Shown: positions 6,195-12,270 of the stretch, in pieces
Layout of the letters: each line of letters opens with the position of its first letter
Numbering within the stretch: position 1 is the first letter of the stretch
Origin: Emticicia aquatilis
Lineage (GTDB): Bacteria; Bacteroidota; Bacteroidia; Cytophagales; Spirosomataceae
NCBI RefSeq assembly: GCF_014644295.1
Contig: NZ_BMKK01000014.1
Location: 79,438-143,437 of the forward strand
Reading direction: 5' to 3'
DNA length: 64,000 bases
Notes under the pieces: generated by a model
The model's input: only the letters and a program-made list of their open reading frames with translations
The model's database searches: none
Told to the model about the DNA's origin: nothing
Position numbers and translations under genes: made by a program

Positions 6195-7646
6195 TTACTC
6201 AACCTTACTCAACTTCACAGTATTCGTACGGTTATTATCTTGTAATGGTAAACTCAAAGTATTGATAAACAAATCTCCTTTTTGTAATTCACCTTCTGCA
6301 ATCAAGAAATCTTTGATAGTATCAACCACTTGTTCAACGTTTTTGCCTTTCATTGTATCTACTACAAAAACCTTCACGCCTGAATAAAGACTCAATTGTG
6401 TTGATAGTTTTTCGTTGTTGGTAAAGATAAACAAACTCGCTTTCGGGCGGTGGTGTGATAAACGAACAGCCGTATAACCCGAGTTAGTAATACCAATAAT
6501 AGCTTTTACTTTCAAGTCACGAGCCAAACGACAAGCCGTCATTACCACGTTATCGTTTTCTTTCTCTTTCGACTCATAAGTATCTTCGGTTACACGTGTA
6601 TGGTGACGGAAATAGAGTTTTTTCTCATCAGCCAATTCTTCCACTTTCACAATCGTGTTTACCATTGTCTCAACTGCCAAAATCGGATATTTTCCCGATG
6701 CACTTTCGGCACTAAGCATAACTGCATCAGCTCCATCTAATACGGCATTGGCAACATCACCTACTTCCGCACGAGTTGGGCGTGGGCTATCAATCATGCT
6801 TTCGAGCATCTGAGTTGCCACGATAACTGGCTTAGCGGCCAAATTCGACATCTCAACCAAACGCTTCTGAATCATCGGCACATCTTCTGATGGAAGTTCA
6901 ACACCCAAATCGCCACGAGCAACCATAATTGCATCACTGGCGTTTACGATAGCCTCCATGTTCACAATTGCTTCTGGTTTTTCAACCTTTGCAATTACTT
7001 TCGCAGTTTTGCCTTGTTCTTTGATATATTTCTGAATCTCTTGGATTTCTTCGGCAGTACGCACAAACGAAAGAGCAACCCAGTCAACATCATTTGCCAA
7101 ACCAAATTTCAAATCTTCCCAATCTTTATCAGTTACTGATGGCTGAGAGATATTAGTATTTGGAAGGTTTACACCTTTCTTTTGTTTCAAAAGACCACCA
7201 TAAACCACTTCTGTGATTACATCGGTGCCATCTTTACCTATTACTTTTACTTCTAACTTTCCATCATCCATCAAGATTCTCTCGCCTACCTTCACGTCGT
7301 TGTACATACCTTTGTAAGGTGTACTCACTCTTTCGGCATTACCAACGATATCGTCGCTGGCGAATCTTAGTTGATTTCCTGCAAAAATTTCAACGCCATC
7401 ATTACCGCTTTCCATCAGACCAATTCTGATTTTAGGGCCTTGCAAATCTTGCAAGATGGCACATTTGAAGCCATGTTCTTTATTGATTTTACGAATACGG
7501 TCGATACGAGTTTGGTGGTCGGCGTGAGTTCCGTGAGAGAAGTTCAAGCGGAAAACATTTACACCAGCTTTTGCCAATGCCAATAACATTTCTTCGCTTT
7601 CGGAAGCAGGTCCGACAGTTGCTACTATTTTGGTTTTTCTTTGCAT
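6195..7646 (-). CDS. pyk: Pyruvate kinase
   Basis: A 483-residue protein of typical length. Visible motifs are KIVATVGPAS at the N-terminus, VFRLNFSHG with the ADP-binding Arg, LQDLQGPKIRIG, the K+ and phosphate site IAKVEKPEAIVN, the active-site signature IMVARGDLGVELP (Mg2+ ligands), and VATQMLESMI. The C-terminal allosteric domain is present from about residue 360. It converts phosphoenolpyruvate and ADP to pyruvate and ATP in glycolysis. A -7 box (TATTTTTG, minus strand, 7684-7691) lies 38 bp upstream. Confidence 0.97.
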   Translation of the reverse strand: MQRKTKIVATVGPASESEEMLLALAKAGVNVFRLNFSHGTHADHQTRIDRIRKINKEHGFKCAILQDLQGPKIRIGLMESGNDGVEIFAGNQLRFASDDIVGNAERVSTPYKGMYNDVKVGERILMDDGKLEVKVIGKDGTDVITEVVYGGLLKQKKGVNLPNTNISQPSVTDKDWEDLKFGLANDVDWVALSFVRTAEEIQEIQKYIKEQGKTAKVIAKVEKPEAIVNMEAIVNASDAIMVARGDLGVELPSEDVPMIQKRLVEMSNLAAKPVIVATQMLESMIDSPRPTRAEVGDVANAVLDGADAVMLSAESASGKYPILAVETMVNTIVKVEELADEKKLYFRHHTRVTEDTYESKEKENDNVVMTACRLARDLKVKAIIGITNSGYTAVRLSHHRPKASLFIFTNNEKLSTQLSLYSGVKVFVVDTMKGKNVEQVVDTIKDFLIAEGELQKGDLFINTLSLPLQDNNRTNTVKLSKVE

Positions 7647-7935: not shown

Positions 7936-7966
7936 TTTGTGTGAAAAAAATATTTGACTAAATTTG
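7936..7966 (+). promoter_or_regulatory. Promoter of the leuA attenuator transcript
   Basis: A -33 element TTTG (7936-7939), a 19-bp spacer and a -7 box TAAATTTG (7959-7966) match the Bacteroidota sigma-ABfr consensus. The predicted start is near 7973, 16 nt before the leader peptide. Confidence 0.75.
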
Positions 7967-7988
7967 TATCAATAAAAAAACAAAACCA

Positions 7989-8045
7989 TTGAAACATTCG
8001 TCAATCGCAATTTCACTTCTCCTGCTACTCAGCCCGTCGGTGTGA
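7989..8045 (+). CDS. leuL: Leucine leader peptide of the leuA attenuator
   Basis: An 18-codon open frame from TTG: it reads MKHSSIAISLLLLLSPSV and ends at TGA (8043-8045). Five consecutive leucine codons (CTT CTC CTG CTA CTC, 8016-8030) lie 13-27 nt before the stop, and they use five different codons. No in-frame ATG exists, so TTG is the only reasonable start; it is preceded by an A-rich tract, as usual for ribosome binding in Bacteroidota. The following hairpins fit ribosome-controlled transcription attenuation. The peptide itself would have no function after synthesis. Confidence 0.75.
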   Translation: MKHSSIAISLLLLLSPSV

Positions 8046-8106
8046 GAAATGGAGATTTTGTATATACGAAAGCCCTTTCTTATCAACGTAAGAAAGGGCT
8101 TTTTTG
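8043..8106 (+). promoter_or_regulatory. leuA attenuator: antiterminator and terminator hairpins
   Basis: The terminator is a perfect 12-bp stem (8071-8082 with 8089-8100), a 6-nt loop and six T's. The segment 8043-8052, which begins with the leader stop codon, can instead pair with the terminator's 5' arm at 8073-8082 (8 Watson-Crick pairs, one wobble, one mismatch). A ribosome stalled on the leucine codons would leave 8043-8052 free, giving antitermination; a ribosome at the stop codon would cover it, so the terminator forms. The pairing was found by eye and no energies were computed. Confidence 0.75.
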
Positions 8107-8157
8107 TGAAAACAGATTGACAAGATTCTTACTTAACCAATATAAATCTCATCAGAA

Positions 8158-9300
8158 ATGAGCGATAAAATTTATGTTTTTGACACTACTTTGCGAGATG
8201 GCGAGCAAGTACCGGGTTGTCAGTTAACGACTGACGAAAAAGTAATGATTGCTAAAGAACTCGAAAAGCTGGGTGTTGATATCATCGAAGCAGGATTTCC
8301 AGTATCGAGTCCTGGCGATTTTCGTTCGGTTGTGGAGGTTTCTAAAGCCGTTACCGAGCCAACAGTTTGTGCGTTGTCACGTGCCGTAAAAGGCGATATT
8401 GATTCCGCTGGCGAAGCTCTGAAATTTGCGAAACGTCCTCGTATTCATACAGGAATCGGTGCATCTGATATTCATATCAAACATAAATTTAATAGTAGCC
8501 GTGAAGCAATTATTGAGCAAGCGATTGATGCCGTAAAACACGCCAGAAACTTGGTTGATGATGTTGAGTTTTATGCCGAAGATGCTGGCCGTGCCGATTT
8601 AGAGTTTTTGGCTCGTCTGACCGAAAGTGTTATCAAAGCAGGTGCTACGGTTGTGAATTTACCTGATACAACAGGTTATGTTTTGCCGAACGATATGTAT
8701 GACCGCATCAATTATTTGATGAATAACGTACCAAATGTTGATAAAGCCATTCTTTCGATGCACAATCATAATGATTTGGGTATGGCAACTGCCAATACAA
8801 TTGCAGGAATCAGAGCGGGAGCAAGACAAGTGGAGGTGACAATCAATGGTATTGGAGAAAGAGCTGGAAATACTTCTTTGGAAGAAGTAGCAATGATTTT
8901 GAAAGTACACAAATCGCTTGGCTACCACACCGACATCGACAGCACGAAGCTATTCCCGATGAGTAATTTGGTTTCTCAGACCATGAGAATGCAAGTTCAA
9001 GCCAATAAGGCAATCGTTGGTCGTAATGCTTTTGCACACTCGTCGGGTATCCACCAAGATGGTTTCTTGAAACACACCGATACTTACGAAATCATTAATC
9101 CACAGGAAGTTGGTGTACCAAAATCTTCAATTGTTTTGACGGCTCGTAGTGGTCGCCACGCATTGAAACACCGCCTCGAAATGTTGGGCTATAAACTCGA
9201 AAAACCTTTGTTAGATGATACATACAAGCGTTTCCTTGACTTAGCCGACCAAATCAAAGAAGTAAATGATAAGGATTTGGTGAAGTTAATGAGAGCGTAG
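8158..9300 (+). CDS. leuA: 2-isopropylmalate synthase, short form without regulatory domain
   Basis: A 380-residue protein of the HMG-CoA-lyase-like superfamily. [12 protein letters not shown] at residues 9-20 holds the catalytic Arg-Asp; [23 protein letters not shown] and the metal motif HNHNDLGMA follow, then [14 protein letters not shown] and [12 protein letters not shown]. It condenses acetyl-CoA with 2-oxoisovalerate, the first step of leucine synthesis. Full-length LeuA has about 500 residues; the C-terminal LeuA dimer/allosteric domain that senses leucine is absent. The upstream leucine leader and attenuator support the leucine assignment over citramalate or homocitrate synthase, which share the catalytic domain. 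Confidence 0.88.
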
Positions 9301-9384: not shown

Positions 9385-12270
9385 TTAAATCAACGCTTCA
9401 TACAAAATCTCGGCTGGGTGTTGGGCTATTCGGCCCGTTCCGTCTTTTATTTGGTGACGACAGCTTGTGCCTGGAGCGGCAATTATTACATCTTCAGCTT
9501 GTTTTCTGACGGTCGGAAAAAGCACCAACTCTCCTACTTTCATTGATACTTCATAATGCTCGGCTTCATAACCAAATGAACCAGCCATTCCGCAGCAACC
9601 CGATGGAATGAGATGAACCTCATAATTTGCTGGTAAAGACAAACTTTTCTTGGTAGGCGTAAGCGAAGATAAAGCTTTTTGGTGGCAATGTCCGTGTAGT
9701 TTTATCAAACGTTTTTCGCTCGAAAATGCTTCTCTTTTGATATTTCCTCGGTCGATTTCTCGGGCAAACCATTCATCAAATTGAAAAGTGTTTTTAGCGA
9801 TTTTTTCGGCAGAATCTCTTAAATCTTGCGGAACAAGTTCAAGATATTCATCTCTCAAAGTCAAAATTGCCGATGGCTCGAGTCCGATGATTGGTGTATT
9901 ATCCGATACAATATCTTTTAGCAATTCAACATTTTTTATAGCGATTTTCTGAGCTTCACGCACCATTCCTTTTGATAAATACGTGCGTCCACTTTCTACA
10001 TGGTTTGGCATAATGACCTCATAACGAAGCCTTTGTAGTAATAAAATCGCTTTTTTACCTACTTCTACATCATTATAATTCGTAAATTCATCGCAGAATA
10101 GATAAACCTTTTTATCGTTTTTGGGGGAAGGTTGCTTGCCAAACCATTCTTTCAATGTCGTGCTATGCAATAACGGCATTGTACGGTCAGGATGAAAACC
10201 TACGATTCGATTAGCGATTCGGCGAGTGGCTTCGGTTTTGAAAATGAAATTATATGCCCACGGAGCAATCGAGGCCAGCTTCATTTGTTTGGTAAAAGTC
10301 CCTATTAACTTCGAGCGGAACGGAATTCCTTTTGTATCATAAGTTTTCTGCAAAAACTCTGCTTTCATCTTGCCCACATCCACACTCGACGGACATTCTG
10401 ACTTACAGCCTTTACACGACAAACACAAATCAAGCACTTCTTTTACACTTTCTTGTGTAATTGCTTGCTCGTTGGTATAATATTGCCTTAAAACATTTGC
10501 TCTGGCACGAGTCGTGTCTTTTTCGCTGCGAGTAGCCATGTAGCTCGGACACATTGTACCGCCTGTGATTTCGGTTTTGCGGCAATCGCCTGAACCGCTA
10601 CATTTTTCGGTTAAGCGTAAAATGCTTTCTTGCTTCGAGAAATCAAAAATTGTTTGGTGTTTGGGCGTTGGTTGGTCGGCTTCGTAACGCAAAAACTCAT
10701 TCATTGGCGGCGAATCAATGATTTTCCCTTGGTTGAAAATGCCTTTTGCGTCAAATATTTGCTTTACTTCTCTGAAAAGTGCGTAGTTTTTTTCACCCAT
10801 CATATACGGAATGAATTCGCCACGCAGACGTCCATCTCCGTGTTCACCCGAGAGTGAGCCGCCGTATTTTTTCACCAAAACTGCCGTTTCGGCCAAAATT
10901 GTTCGGAAAAGTTGTCGGCCTTCGGTGGTTTTCAGATTAACCATCGGCTCTACGTGCAGCTCGCCCGCCCCTGCATGGGCATACATTGAATATTGTACAT
11001 TGAGTTTTTTTAGTAAAACCTCTAAATCTTCGATGTATGCAGGCAAATCTTGTGGGTCAACGGCACAGTCTTCAATTAAGTTTACGCACTGAGTATCTCC
11101 TTCAAGGTTGCGAAGTAAACCTAAACCCCCTTTTCGCACTTCCCATGCCTTTTTAGAGTCATCACCGAGCAAGATTGGGTGAGCATAACCCAGATTTTTT
11201 TCTTTGAGAGCTTTTATTAAATTTTCGGCTTTTTGCAGTAGTCCTTCTTTGGTTTCATCGAAAAATTCAACCATCAAAATAGCTTTAGGCTCACCTTCGA
11301 TGAAAAATCTATTTTTCGACTGCTCAATATTGGTTTTTGTAAATTCCAGAATAAAATCATCGACCAACTCGGAAGCTGAGCAATTATGTTCAAGAGCCAC
11401 AAGATTGGCCAAAAGCGACTCATTGAGCGTATGAGTATGCACGGCCACCATTCCTACTTCTTTCGGAGGTATGTCGAAAAGTTTCAGTTTTGCTTCAGTA
11501 ACAAAGCAAAGCGTACCTTCCGAACCTGCAATTAGTTTAGATAAATTCAGTAGCTCAACATTCAGTAAGGCATCTAAAGCATAACCTGTATTTCGGCGTT
11601 TTACGTTGGCTTTCGGAAAACCCTCTTTTATGGCCGTTTGATTTTCAGGATTGTTGATGAGTTTATCAAGACTTTGATAAATTTTGCCTTCAAGGGTTTC
11701 CAATTTACATTTTTCTTGAAAAGATTTTTGGTCTAAATCGCTGAAAACAACCTCGCTACCATCTGATAATAAAGCTTTTACCTCCAAAAGATTATCACGG
11801 GTTGCTCCCCAAATAATTGAGTGAAGTCCGCACGAATTATTGCCAATCATGCCTCCAATCATGGCTCGGCTCGATGTCGAGGTTTCGGGACCAAACATTA
11901 GGCCGTAGGGTTTCAGATAAGCGTTGAGGTCGTCACGAATGACACCTGGCTGCACTCTTACCCATTTTTCGGCTTGACTTACTTCGAGGATATTGATGAA
12001 GTTTTTTGAAATATCAACCACCAATCCTTTTCCAACAACCTGCCCAGCCAGTGATGTACCCGCAGCACGAGGAATAAGTGTAATTTGCTCATTATCAGCA
12101 AACTTAATGAGTTTTTTTATATCATTTACAGTCTTGGGAATGGCCACCGCCAACGGTTCTTCCTGATAAACCGAGGCATCGGTCGAATAGACTTTCTTTA
12201 GGGCTTTGTCGGTAGTGGTATTTTTGAAGTAAAGTTCGCCTTCAAATTCGCTCTGCAACGCATCAAACAT
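9385..12270 (-). CDS. FAD-linked oxidase fused to Fe-S/CCG domains (GlcD-GlcF or Dld-like)
   Basis: A 961-residue fusion. The N-terminal half is an FAD_binding_4 domain (PRAAGTSLAGQVVGKG near residue 67, PGVIRDDLNAYL) and an FAD-oxidase C-terminal domain with SGEHGDGRLRGEF. The second half has a ferredoxin-like segment (CSGSGDC, then CLSCKGCKSECP) and a C-terminal part with HGHCHQKAL and SGCCGMAGSFGYE, the CCG domain of glycolate/lactate oxidases. Such fusions oxidise 2-hydroxy acids such as D-lactate, glycolate or D-2-hydroxyglutarate and pass electrons to the quinone pool at the inner membrane. The substrate is not resolved. It stands alone on its strand. Confidence 0.88.
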   Translation of the reverse strand: MFDALQSEFEGELYFKNTTTDKALKKVYSTDASVYQEEPLAVAIPKTVNDIKKLIKFADNEQITLIPRAAGTSLAGQVVGKGLVVDISKNFINILEVSQAEKWVRVQPGVIRDDLNAYLKPYGLMFGPETSTSSRAMIGGMIGNNSCGLHSIIWGATRDNLLEVKALLSDGSEVVFSDLDQKSFQEKCKLETLEGKIYQSLDKLINNPENQTAIKEGFPKANVKRRNTGYALDALLNVELLNLSKLIAGSEGTLCFVTEAKLKLFDIPPKEVGMVAVHTHTLNESLLANLVALEHNCSASELVDDFILEFTKTNIEQSKNRFFIEGEPKAILMVEFFDETKEGLLQKAENLIKALKEKNLGYAHPILLGDDSKKAWEVRKGGLGLLRNLEGDTQCVNLIEDCAVDPQDLPAYIEDLEVLLKKLNVQYSMYAHAGAGELHVEPMVNLKTTEGRQLFRTILAETAVLVKKYGGSLSGEHGDGRLRGEFIPYMMGEKNYALFREVKQIFDAKGIFNQGKIIDSPPMNEFLRYEADQPTPKHQTIFDFSKQESILRLTEKCSGSGDCRKTEITGGTMCPSYMATRSEKDTTRARANVLRQYYTNEQAITQESVKEVLDLCLSCKGCKSECPSSVDVGKMKAEFLQKTYDTKGIPFRSKLIGTFTKQMKLASIAPWAYNFIFKTEATRRIANRIVGFHPDRTMPLLHSTTLKEWFGKQPSPKNDKKVYLFCDEFTNYNDVEVGKKAILLLQRLRYEVIMPNHVESGRTYLSKGMVREAQKIAIKNVELLKDIVSDNTPIIGLEPSAILTLRDEYLELVPQDLRDSAEKIAKNTFQFDEWFAREIDRGNIKREAFSSEKRLIKLHGHCHQKALSSLTPTKKSLSLPANYEVHLIPSGCCGMAGSFGYEAEHYEVSMKVGELVLFPTVRKQAEDVIIAAPGTSCRHQIKDGTGRIAQHPAEILYEALI

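Follow-up and report, generated by a model that had tools for sequence, protein, structure and literature searches.

A predicted leucine attenuator in front of leuA in Emticicia aquatilis and relatives of its family

Leader-peptide attenuation is a textbook mechanism, and leuL of Escherichia coli is an established attenuator. For the phylum of Emticicia aquatilis, the literature searched yielded only rare, short remarks on this mode of control in the passages at hand: a paper on Flavobacterium psychrophilum speaks of 'strong clues' of leader-peptide attenuation before operons for amino-acid biosynthesis (PMC9723704), and one on Bacteroides thetaiotaomicron mentions short ORFs reminiscent of leader peptides (PMC7366714). 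Excerpts on Staphylococcus aureus (PMC5794164), Listeria (PMC5864092) and Corynebacterium (PMC10272879) describe a leader peptide or uORF before branched-chain genes. The Bacteroid-trp RNA (RF01692) is presented in part of another paper as a candidate cis-regulatory RNA in Bacteroidetes (PMC2864571), and a general absence of Shine-Dalgarno sequences in Bacteroidetes is stated in an extract from PMC3155529. Titles and the beginnings of abstracts gave no leuA leader in this lineage; a 2010 survey by Lopatovskaya and colleagues, devoted to attenuation in amino-acid operons, may cover Bacteroidetes.

The leuA gene of E. aquatilis lies in a 64 kb stretch of DNA, referred to as the window. Like E. 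coli leuL, its upstream region combines a short leader ORF containing consecutive Leu codons (in leuL four) with a terminator and, downstream, a 2-isopropylmalate synthase gene, and the two behave qualitatively alike in the folding calculations described below. It differs from leuL in that the leader has 18 rather than 28 codons, starts with TTG without a Shine-Dalgarno-like site, and has a stop codon overlapped by segment 2 of the attenuator, and in that leuA stands alone and encodes a LeuA without the allosteric domain. The F. psychrophilum case shares the phylum and the leader-peptide principle, but belongs to another lineage, and its passages name neither a leuA element nor a comparative analysis. 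The S. aureus, Listeria and Corynebacterium cases, as far as the excerpts go, belong to other phyla, whereas in Emticicia leuA and ilvD have separate leaders of different codon content. We consider it very probable that the leuA leader, the alternative stems and the terminator together form a classic ribosome-mediated leucine transcription attenuator.

Table 1. Predicted parts of the leuA upstream region and the leuA gene, in window positions
Feature	Positions	Strand	Details
Predicted Bacteroidota-type promoter	7936..7966	+	TTTG 7936-7939, TAAATTTG 7959-7966 (-7 element)
Leader ORF, TTG start, 18 codons, MKHSSIAISLLLLLSPSV	7989..8045	+	Stop TGA 8043-8045
Five consecutive Leu codons CTT CTC CTG CTA CTC (regulatory; also part of segment 1)	8016..8030	+	
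Segment 1: TCTCC and CTCA, predicted partner of segment 2	8018..8031	+	-12.8 kcal/mol for 8016-8056
Segment 2: TGAGAAATGGAGA, overlaps leader stop, predicted partner of segment 1 or segment 3	8043..8055	+	
Segment 3: terminator 5' arm AAGCCCTTTCTTA	8070..8082	+	
Segment 4: terminator 3' arm 8089-8101, T run 8100-8105	8089..8105	+	
leuA, 2-isopropylmalate synthase, 380 aa, without C-terminal LeuA allosteric domain	8158..9300	+	NCBIfam, Pfam

The predicted parts are collected in Table 1. The Bacteroidota promoter consensus is TTTG/TAnnTTTG; here the two elements are separated by a spacer of 19 nt, TAwATTTG is aligned in 10/10 sequences of Emticicia and its neighbour, and in 74 of the 84 family regions with a leader (see below) a TAnnTTTG lies at most 75 nt 5' of the leader start. 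All nine Emticicia leaders that could be read, and the neighbour genus, share the TTG start and the TGA stop. On either strand of the window, five CTN codons in succession occur at 8016 alone, and in 20 dinucleotide shuffles they do not occur; when TTA and TTG are counted as well, the window has seven overlapping Leu runs of five against 1.35 on average in shuffles, which makes such a run of CTN codons rare and Leu runs in general less unusual. By eye, a second frame, beginning at an ATT at 7988, is also open through the leader region of the window. 

The predicted intrinsic terminator lies at 8070-8105, between the leader and leuA, and RNAfold extends its 13-bp core to 16 bp with an energy of -21.8 kcal/mol. 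A simple terminator scan of the window did not list it, probably because the rule requires five T's in eight bases and the stem here uses up T's. Nine of the ten positions of 8043-8052 pair with 8073-8082, one of them as G-U, the mismatch being 8050 with 8075; together with the covariation score given below, this pairing points to 8043-8052 with 8073-8082 as a predicted antiterminator (2:3) mutually exclusive with the terminator (3:4). The stretch that separates segments 2 and 3 (8053-8069) is T-rich with a recurring G (TTTTGTATA, GGTTTTGCAT), as it is in the family alignment; following the 1:2 hairpin, it is possibly a polymerase pause site. The preliminary description had read the promoter, the TTG-initiated 18-codon frame, the complementarity of the leader stop region to the 5' arm of the terminator and the 52 bp between terminator and leuA as we find them. 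Its five consecutive Leu codons are there, but they are of four kinds and not five, CTC being used twice; likewise the terminator has the six T's described, but a core of 13 bp rather than 12.

Attenuation at this locus would work as follows. RNA polymerase would start near 7970 and a ribosome would start at the TTG. With plentiful leucyl-tRNA, the ribosome would reach the TGA at 8043 and cover segment 2, which would leave segment 3 free for segment 4 and lead to termination at 8100-8105. With scarce leucyl-tRNA, it would wait on 8016-8030 and mask segment 1, so that 2:3 could form before segment 4 is made and transcription would read through into leuA. Without translation, 1:2 could form, favouring termination.

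We examined this scheme by folding the RNA 3' of the part masked by a ribosome (footprint, 14 nt), ending before segment 4, and took as readout how probable it is that segment 3 is engaged by the RNA upstream of it. In the window, this probability was 0.85-0.86 with the ribosome on the codons from 8007 to 8028, all five Leu codons included; it was 0.69, 0.38, 0.35 and 0.22 over the four codons that follow, and a ribosome at the stop gave 0.25. A footprint of 17 nt gave 0.69 on the last Leu codon, and with ribosomes further upstream 1:2 was possible at about one half. In the predicted fold, the regulatory codons thus lie where stalling would mask segment 1 and spare segment 2, and the 2:3 pairing with the stalled ribosome was above all 40 shuffles. 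Across the 84 family regions, the mean was 0.80 for the stalled ribosome and 0.24 at the stop, and the difference was at least 0.2 in 82/84 regions (14 nt), 70/84 (11 nt) or 84/84 (17 nt); this contrast is partly expected, since less RNA is free when the ribosome stands at the stop. With shuffled segments the stalled mean was 0.50, and in 53 of the 84 regions at most two of 40 shuffles were as high as the real sequence.

The predicted 1:2 protector has the energy given in Table 1 when taken alone, and without a ribosome segment 3 of the window was held with a probability of 0.59. The corresponding family mean was 0.63, and four of nine Emticicia regions reached 0.89-0.90; protection by 1:2 is therefore not general. 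When segment 4 was included and equilibrium assumed, the probability of 3:4 was 0.93 in the window with a stalled ribosome, and in the family 3:4 was favoured on average in both states (0.73 stalled, 0.93 at the stop). Since 3:4 wins at equilibrium even when the ribosome is stalled, the scheme requires 2:3 to be the first to form, which is also how the classic case works. For E. coli leuL, the script gave 2:3 probabilities of 0.50 on the median Leu codon, 0.08 on the last Leu codon and 0.00 at the stop, and an equilibrium probability of 3:4 of 0.96 in both states.

The preliminary description had proposed looking upstream of leuA in relatives for Leu runs and covarying alternative stems. A LeuA match was present in all 200 family genomes searched, some of which match the paralogue only, and 129 leuA upstream regions from 31 genera were read, that of the window included. 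A script picked the best hairpin resembling a terminator and, 12-70 nt 5' of it, a leader frame, preferring ATG and then the most Leu, a preference for which shuffles sent through the same selection correct. Of 88 regions that passed, four were removed because their hairpin had no C/T-rich arm, which leaves leader and terminator in 84/129 regions and 18/31 genera; the script detected no such pair among the 129 regions in 13 of the 31 genera. Nine of the ten Emticicia regions pass, the tenth ending at the contig end, and no region passes in three genera (g23, 0/10; g17, 0/9; g36, 0/3). Among the 45 failing regions, one is this contig-end case (L005) and in another (L112) the parts are visible by eye; 27 carry TAnnTTTG no more than about 70 nt away from leuA, which suggests that the leader is really absent there.

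The leader peptides vary between genera (for example MTLSCILLRLQLMLSTR, MKPIAQNLILLLLITS, MFAKTLNLSLILLGRTV and MTCTNYNIQSLLLLTLAM). The 84 leaders start with ATG in 74 cases and with TTG in ten, the latter only in Emticicia and one neighbour genus. Leu makes up 359 of 1374 codons in frame (26.1%) in the 88 leaders, compared with 137/1374 (10.0%) and 116/1374 (8.4%) in the other frames; for the 84, the in-frame value is 26.8% against 11.9% in shuffles given the same selection. There are four Leu in 15 of the 84 leaders, five in 27, six in nine and seven in three, while 23 have three and seven only two. In eight 19-codon leaders (G049 and G025 left out), variable sites fall on codon positions 1, 2 and 3 in the numbers 7, 7 and 8; without a third-position excess, the leader frame rests on the Leu enrichment and on the conserved start and stop. 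The proposed look at relatives thus turned up leader and terminator in nearly two-thirds of the regions, with Leu enrichment specific to one frame.

For the stems, 52 of the 84 sequences were used, capped per genus and with duplicates removed. The terminator covaries strongly: 93.4% of its cells are paired, and 41 cells have two-sided changes, compared with 11.6 in shuffles and 2-16 with slid partners. The antiterminator pairing is kept, with weaker covariation: 83.7% of 2:3 cells are paired against 45-66% with slid partners (at most 65.8), and the covariation score is 0.227 against 0.065-0.172. It beats all 500 shuffles in pairing, covariation score and two-sided cells (17 against 8.1), counts that, given the relatedness of the sequences, should not be read as probabilities. 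The 17 two-sided cells are hardly above those of slid partners (7-16), and two slides equal the seven two-sided pairs of 2:3, so the count of two-sided changes alone cannot single out 2:3. The outermost 2:3 pair is unpaired in 32 of the 52 sequences. The energy of the 2:3 duplex has p ≤0.05 in 62 of the 88 regions and misses this in 26; the window's own value, p = 0.23, is not significant. Of the expected covarying stems, then, the terminator is clear, while the antiterminator stands as a conserved pairing with fainter covariation.

The closest named leuA relatives are from Emticicia (86-97% identity; 78% for one Emticicia sp. record), and metagenome bins of Spirosomataceae and Cytophagaceae are also among the close relatives; 31 of 80 named leuA-relative loci were scanned as well. 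In other families of the order, 59 genomes were searched, 44 had a match and 25 loci were read. Reading found a clear Leu-rich leader with terminator in two of the 25, in genomes G213 (locus L279) and G231 (L282), and these may be independent or ancient cases. Their leaders read MQSKSLNIALLLQLLLGVV and MKYTSRLLNLNFALLLLAA, respectively. No leader was seen within 350 nt of leuA at the other 23 loci; where leuA is internal to an operon, a leader could be hidden upstream.

The LeuA protein of the window scores 590 bits against NCBIfam model NF002086 (cut-off, 532) and consists of PF00682 and PF22617 (catalytic domain and linker); PF08502 is absent. The PF08502 domain carries leucine feedback. Given a LeuA without this allosteric domain, we infer that attenuation is the main leucine control. 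The stricter rule, which would confine attenuation to cases of a LeuA without the domain, was not supported, since the leaders of G213 and G231 precede long LeuA proteins (497 and 499 aa). Upstream of leuA lies a pyruvate kinase gene (6195-7646) and downstream of leuA the gene at 9385-12270, both on the opposite strand. A second LeuA-like gene of the genome (G000:C18) was set aside; its best NCBIfam match is a citramalate synthase model, below the cut-off, and it has a LeuA_dimer domain. By eye, that locus (L002, L032) reads as leuC-leuD-x-leuB, x being citramalate-synthase-like with the LeuA allosteric domain, and no leader or terminator is seen in roughly 90 nt directly 5' of leuC.

Two further biosynthetic genes of this genome have leaders of matching codon content. 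The ilvD gene, whose query was dihydroxy-acid dehydratase (G000:C6, L260, reverse strand), is preceded by an ATG leader, MKNNTVLVIPIILLLV, before a terminator hairpin; Ile, Leu and Val make up ten of the 15 residues after the start. The leader is followed by GTGGAGAAGG, CCTTCTTCAC and GTGAAGAAGGCTTTTT, which allow alternative stems, and the masking fold gives 0.91 for the stalled ribosome and 0.48 at the stop. We regard this as a predicted ilv attenuator. By reading, a leader of this type is present together with a terminator in 18 of the 29 regions upstream of ilvD, script calls that look spurious (L237, L242, L261 and L264) being left out of the count. One ilvD region (L258, genome G095) carries a tandem pair of Ile/Leu/Val-rich leaders, each with a terminator: first MIIRIKNTAILVSIITPSTV, and after it a promoter, the palindrome and MFTITGVVVVLIISTQTV. 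The trpE-like gene (L317, reverse strand; G000:C6:11655-12092) has the leader MTQYSNIVKIWWWRPAK, in which three Trp codons follow one another, and then, by eye, a 13-bp terminator; this is a predicted trp attenuator. No leader was seen by eye upstream of hisG in this genome. The leaders of relatives, their in-frame Leu codons, the stems and these cognate ilv and trp leaders support the leucine attenuation predicted in the preliminary description.

A palindrome, AGCGAAATTTCGCT (variants AGCGAATATTCGC and AGCGTAATTTCGCT), lies between the promoter and the first frame at leuA of relatives and at ilvD (loci L260, G000:C6 near 481131, L212, L218, L221 and L215 among them). In 66 of the 84 regions, from 13 genera, its pattern GCGAAWWTTCGC lies no more than 60 nt 5' of the leader start. 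It is also found shortly 5' of leuA in four regions without a leader, and before ilvD whether or not an attenuator is present. At leuA, neither the window nor the nine Emticicia regions of sufficient length carry it. The exact 13-mer AGCGAAATTTCGC turns up at one to three sites in ten of 12 genomes and at none in the other two, with no match for the reversed control; when six genomes were scanned with the looser pattern AGCGAAWWTTCGC, the reversed control matched four times. In five ilvD regions, one half of the palindrome is changed in a way that would break an RNA hairpin (AGCGAAATTTCACT), which speaks for a DNA operator. The palindrome is thus likely, judging from sequence, to be the DNA operator of a regulator, and it hints at a second layer of control. 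Two copies in the E. aquatilis genome lie between the fructose-bisphosphatase (fbp) and fatty-acid desaturase genes (G000:C10:88259; L213 position 1501) and between malate synthase and glmS (G000:C10:235003; L309 position 1501), and may point to a wider carbon-metabolism regulon. Tentatively, and with rather less than even confidence, we suggest that the family of Emticicia and Spirosoma has a two-layer module of its own in which separate cognate attenuators before leuA (Leu) and ilvD (Ile/Val/Leu) would stand behind a shared promoter-proximal palindrome (AGCGAAWWTTCGCT) read by one regulator; attenuation would replace the feedback missing in the short LeuA, and Emticicia would have lost the palindrome at leuA while retaining the attenuator.

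The palindrome, with its 66 of 84 leader regions and its presence before ilvD, is also what favours transcription-factor control at the promoter as the main leucine switch, the leader serving only for fine-tuning. We think this unlikely, though worth keeping in mind: the palindrome is missing at leuA in the window and the nine Emticicia regions, where the leader is well conserved, and near fbp and the malate synthase gene it need not sense leucine. Quite improbable is a fixed, partial terminator beside a chance ORF, the hairpin lowering leuA expression or yielding a small RNA with no sensing of leucine. The terminator is indeed the most stable part with the clearest covariation, and the two-sided changes of 2:3 hardly exceed the slid controls, but chance would have to account for differing leader peptides in 18 genera that are enriched for Leu in one frame only, for the level at which 2:3 pairing is kept (83.7% of cells), and for ilvD and trpE leaders in the same genome with the matching amino acids.

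The leader might instead act on translation, as a uORF or through reinitiation, and a short ORF 5' of the gene in a phylum generally without Shine-Dalgarno sequences (so the extract from PMC3155529) would suit this. Against it stand the 112 nt from the leader stop to the leuA start, with the terminator and T run between them, and reinitiation has been proposed for short distances in the part of PMC4833913 at hand; we give this reading very little weight. Direct sensing of leucine or its tRNA by a riboswitch or T-box, which the long structured 5' UTR might recall, seems extremely improbable. The alignment of Emticicia leader regions has no conserved stretch beyond the promoter, the leader and the attenuator stems, and Rfam gave no match at gathering score, Bacteroid-trp RNA included, at leuA, ilvD or trpE of this genome. 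Over the whole window, the gathering score returned a tRNA only, and no T-box or riboswitch. Neither Bacteroid-trp RNA nor Leu_leader, which we take to be Rfam's enterobacterial leucine leader, was matched in the window, both being absent at gathering score and also from 32 matches with E up to 10. A weak match to RsaJ (30.5 bits against a gathering score of 100; E 1.2e-5 for 301 bases) spans only 8043-8102 and was taken as a resemblance to a terminator.

Ribosome-mediated leucine attenuation, the reading we prefer, needs coupling of transcription and translation and a well-started leader, in a phylum that, by the account in PMC3155529, is generally without Shine-Dalgarno sequences. The leu, ilv and trp set in one family offers a comparative system in which the leader sequences vary and the codon logic is kept, with start codons that are TTG or ATG depending on the genus, and with the element detected in only some genera. 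Short ORFs of this kind are likely to be leaders and not protein genes. For the organism, the leuA attenuator suggests a route by which a LeuA without an allosteric domain could be held to leucine demand.
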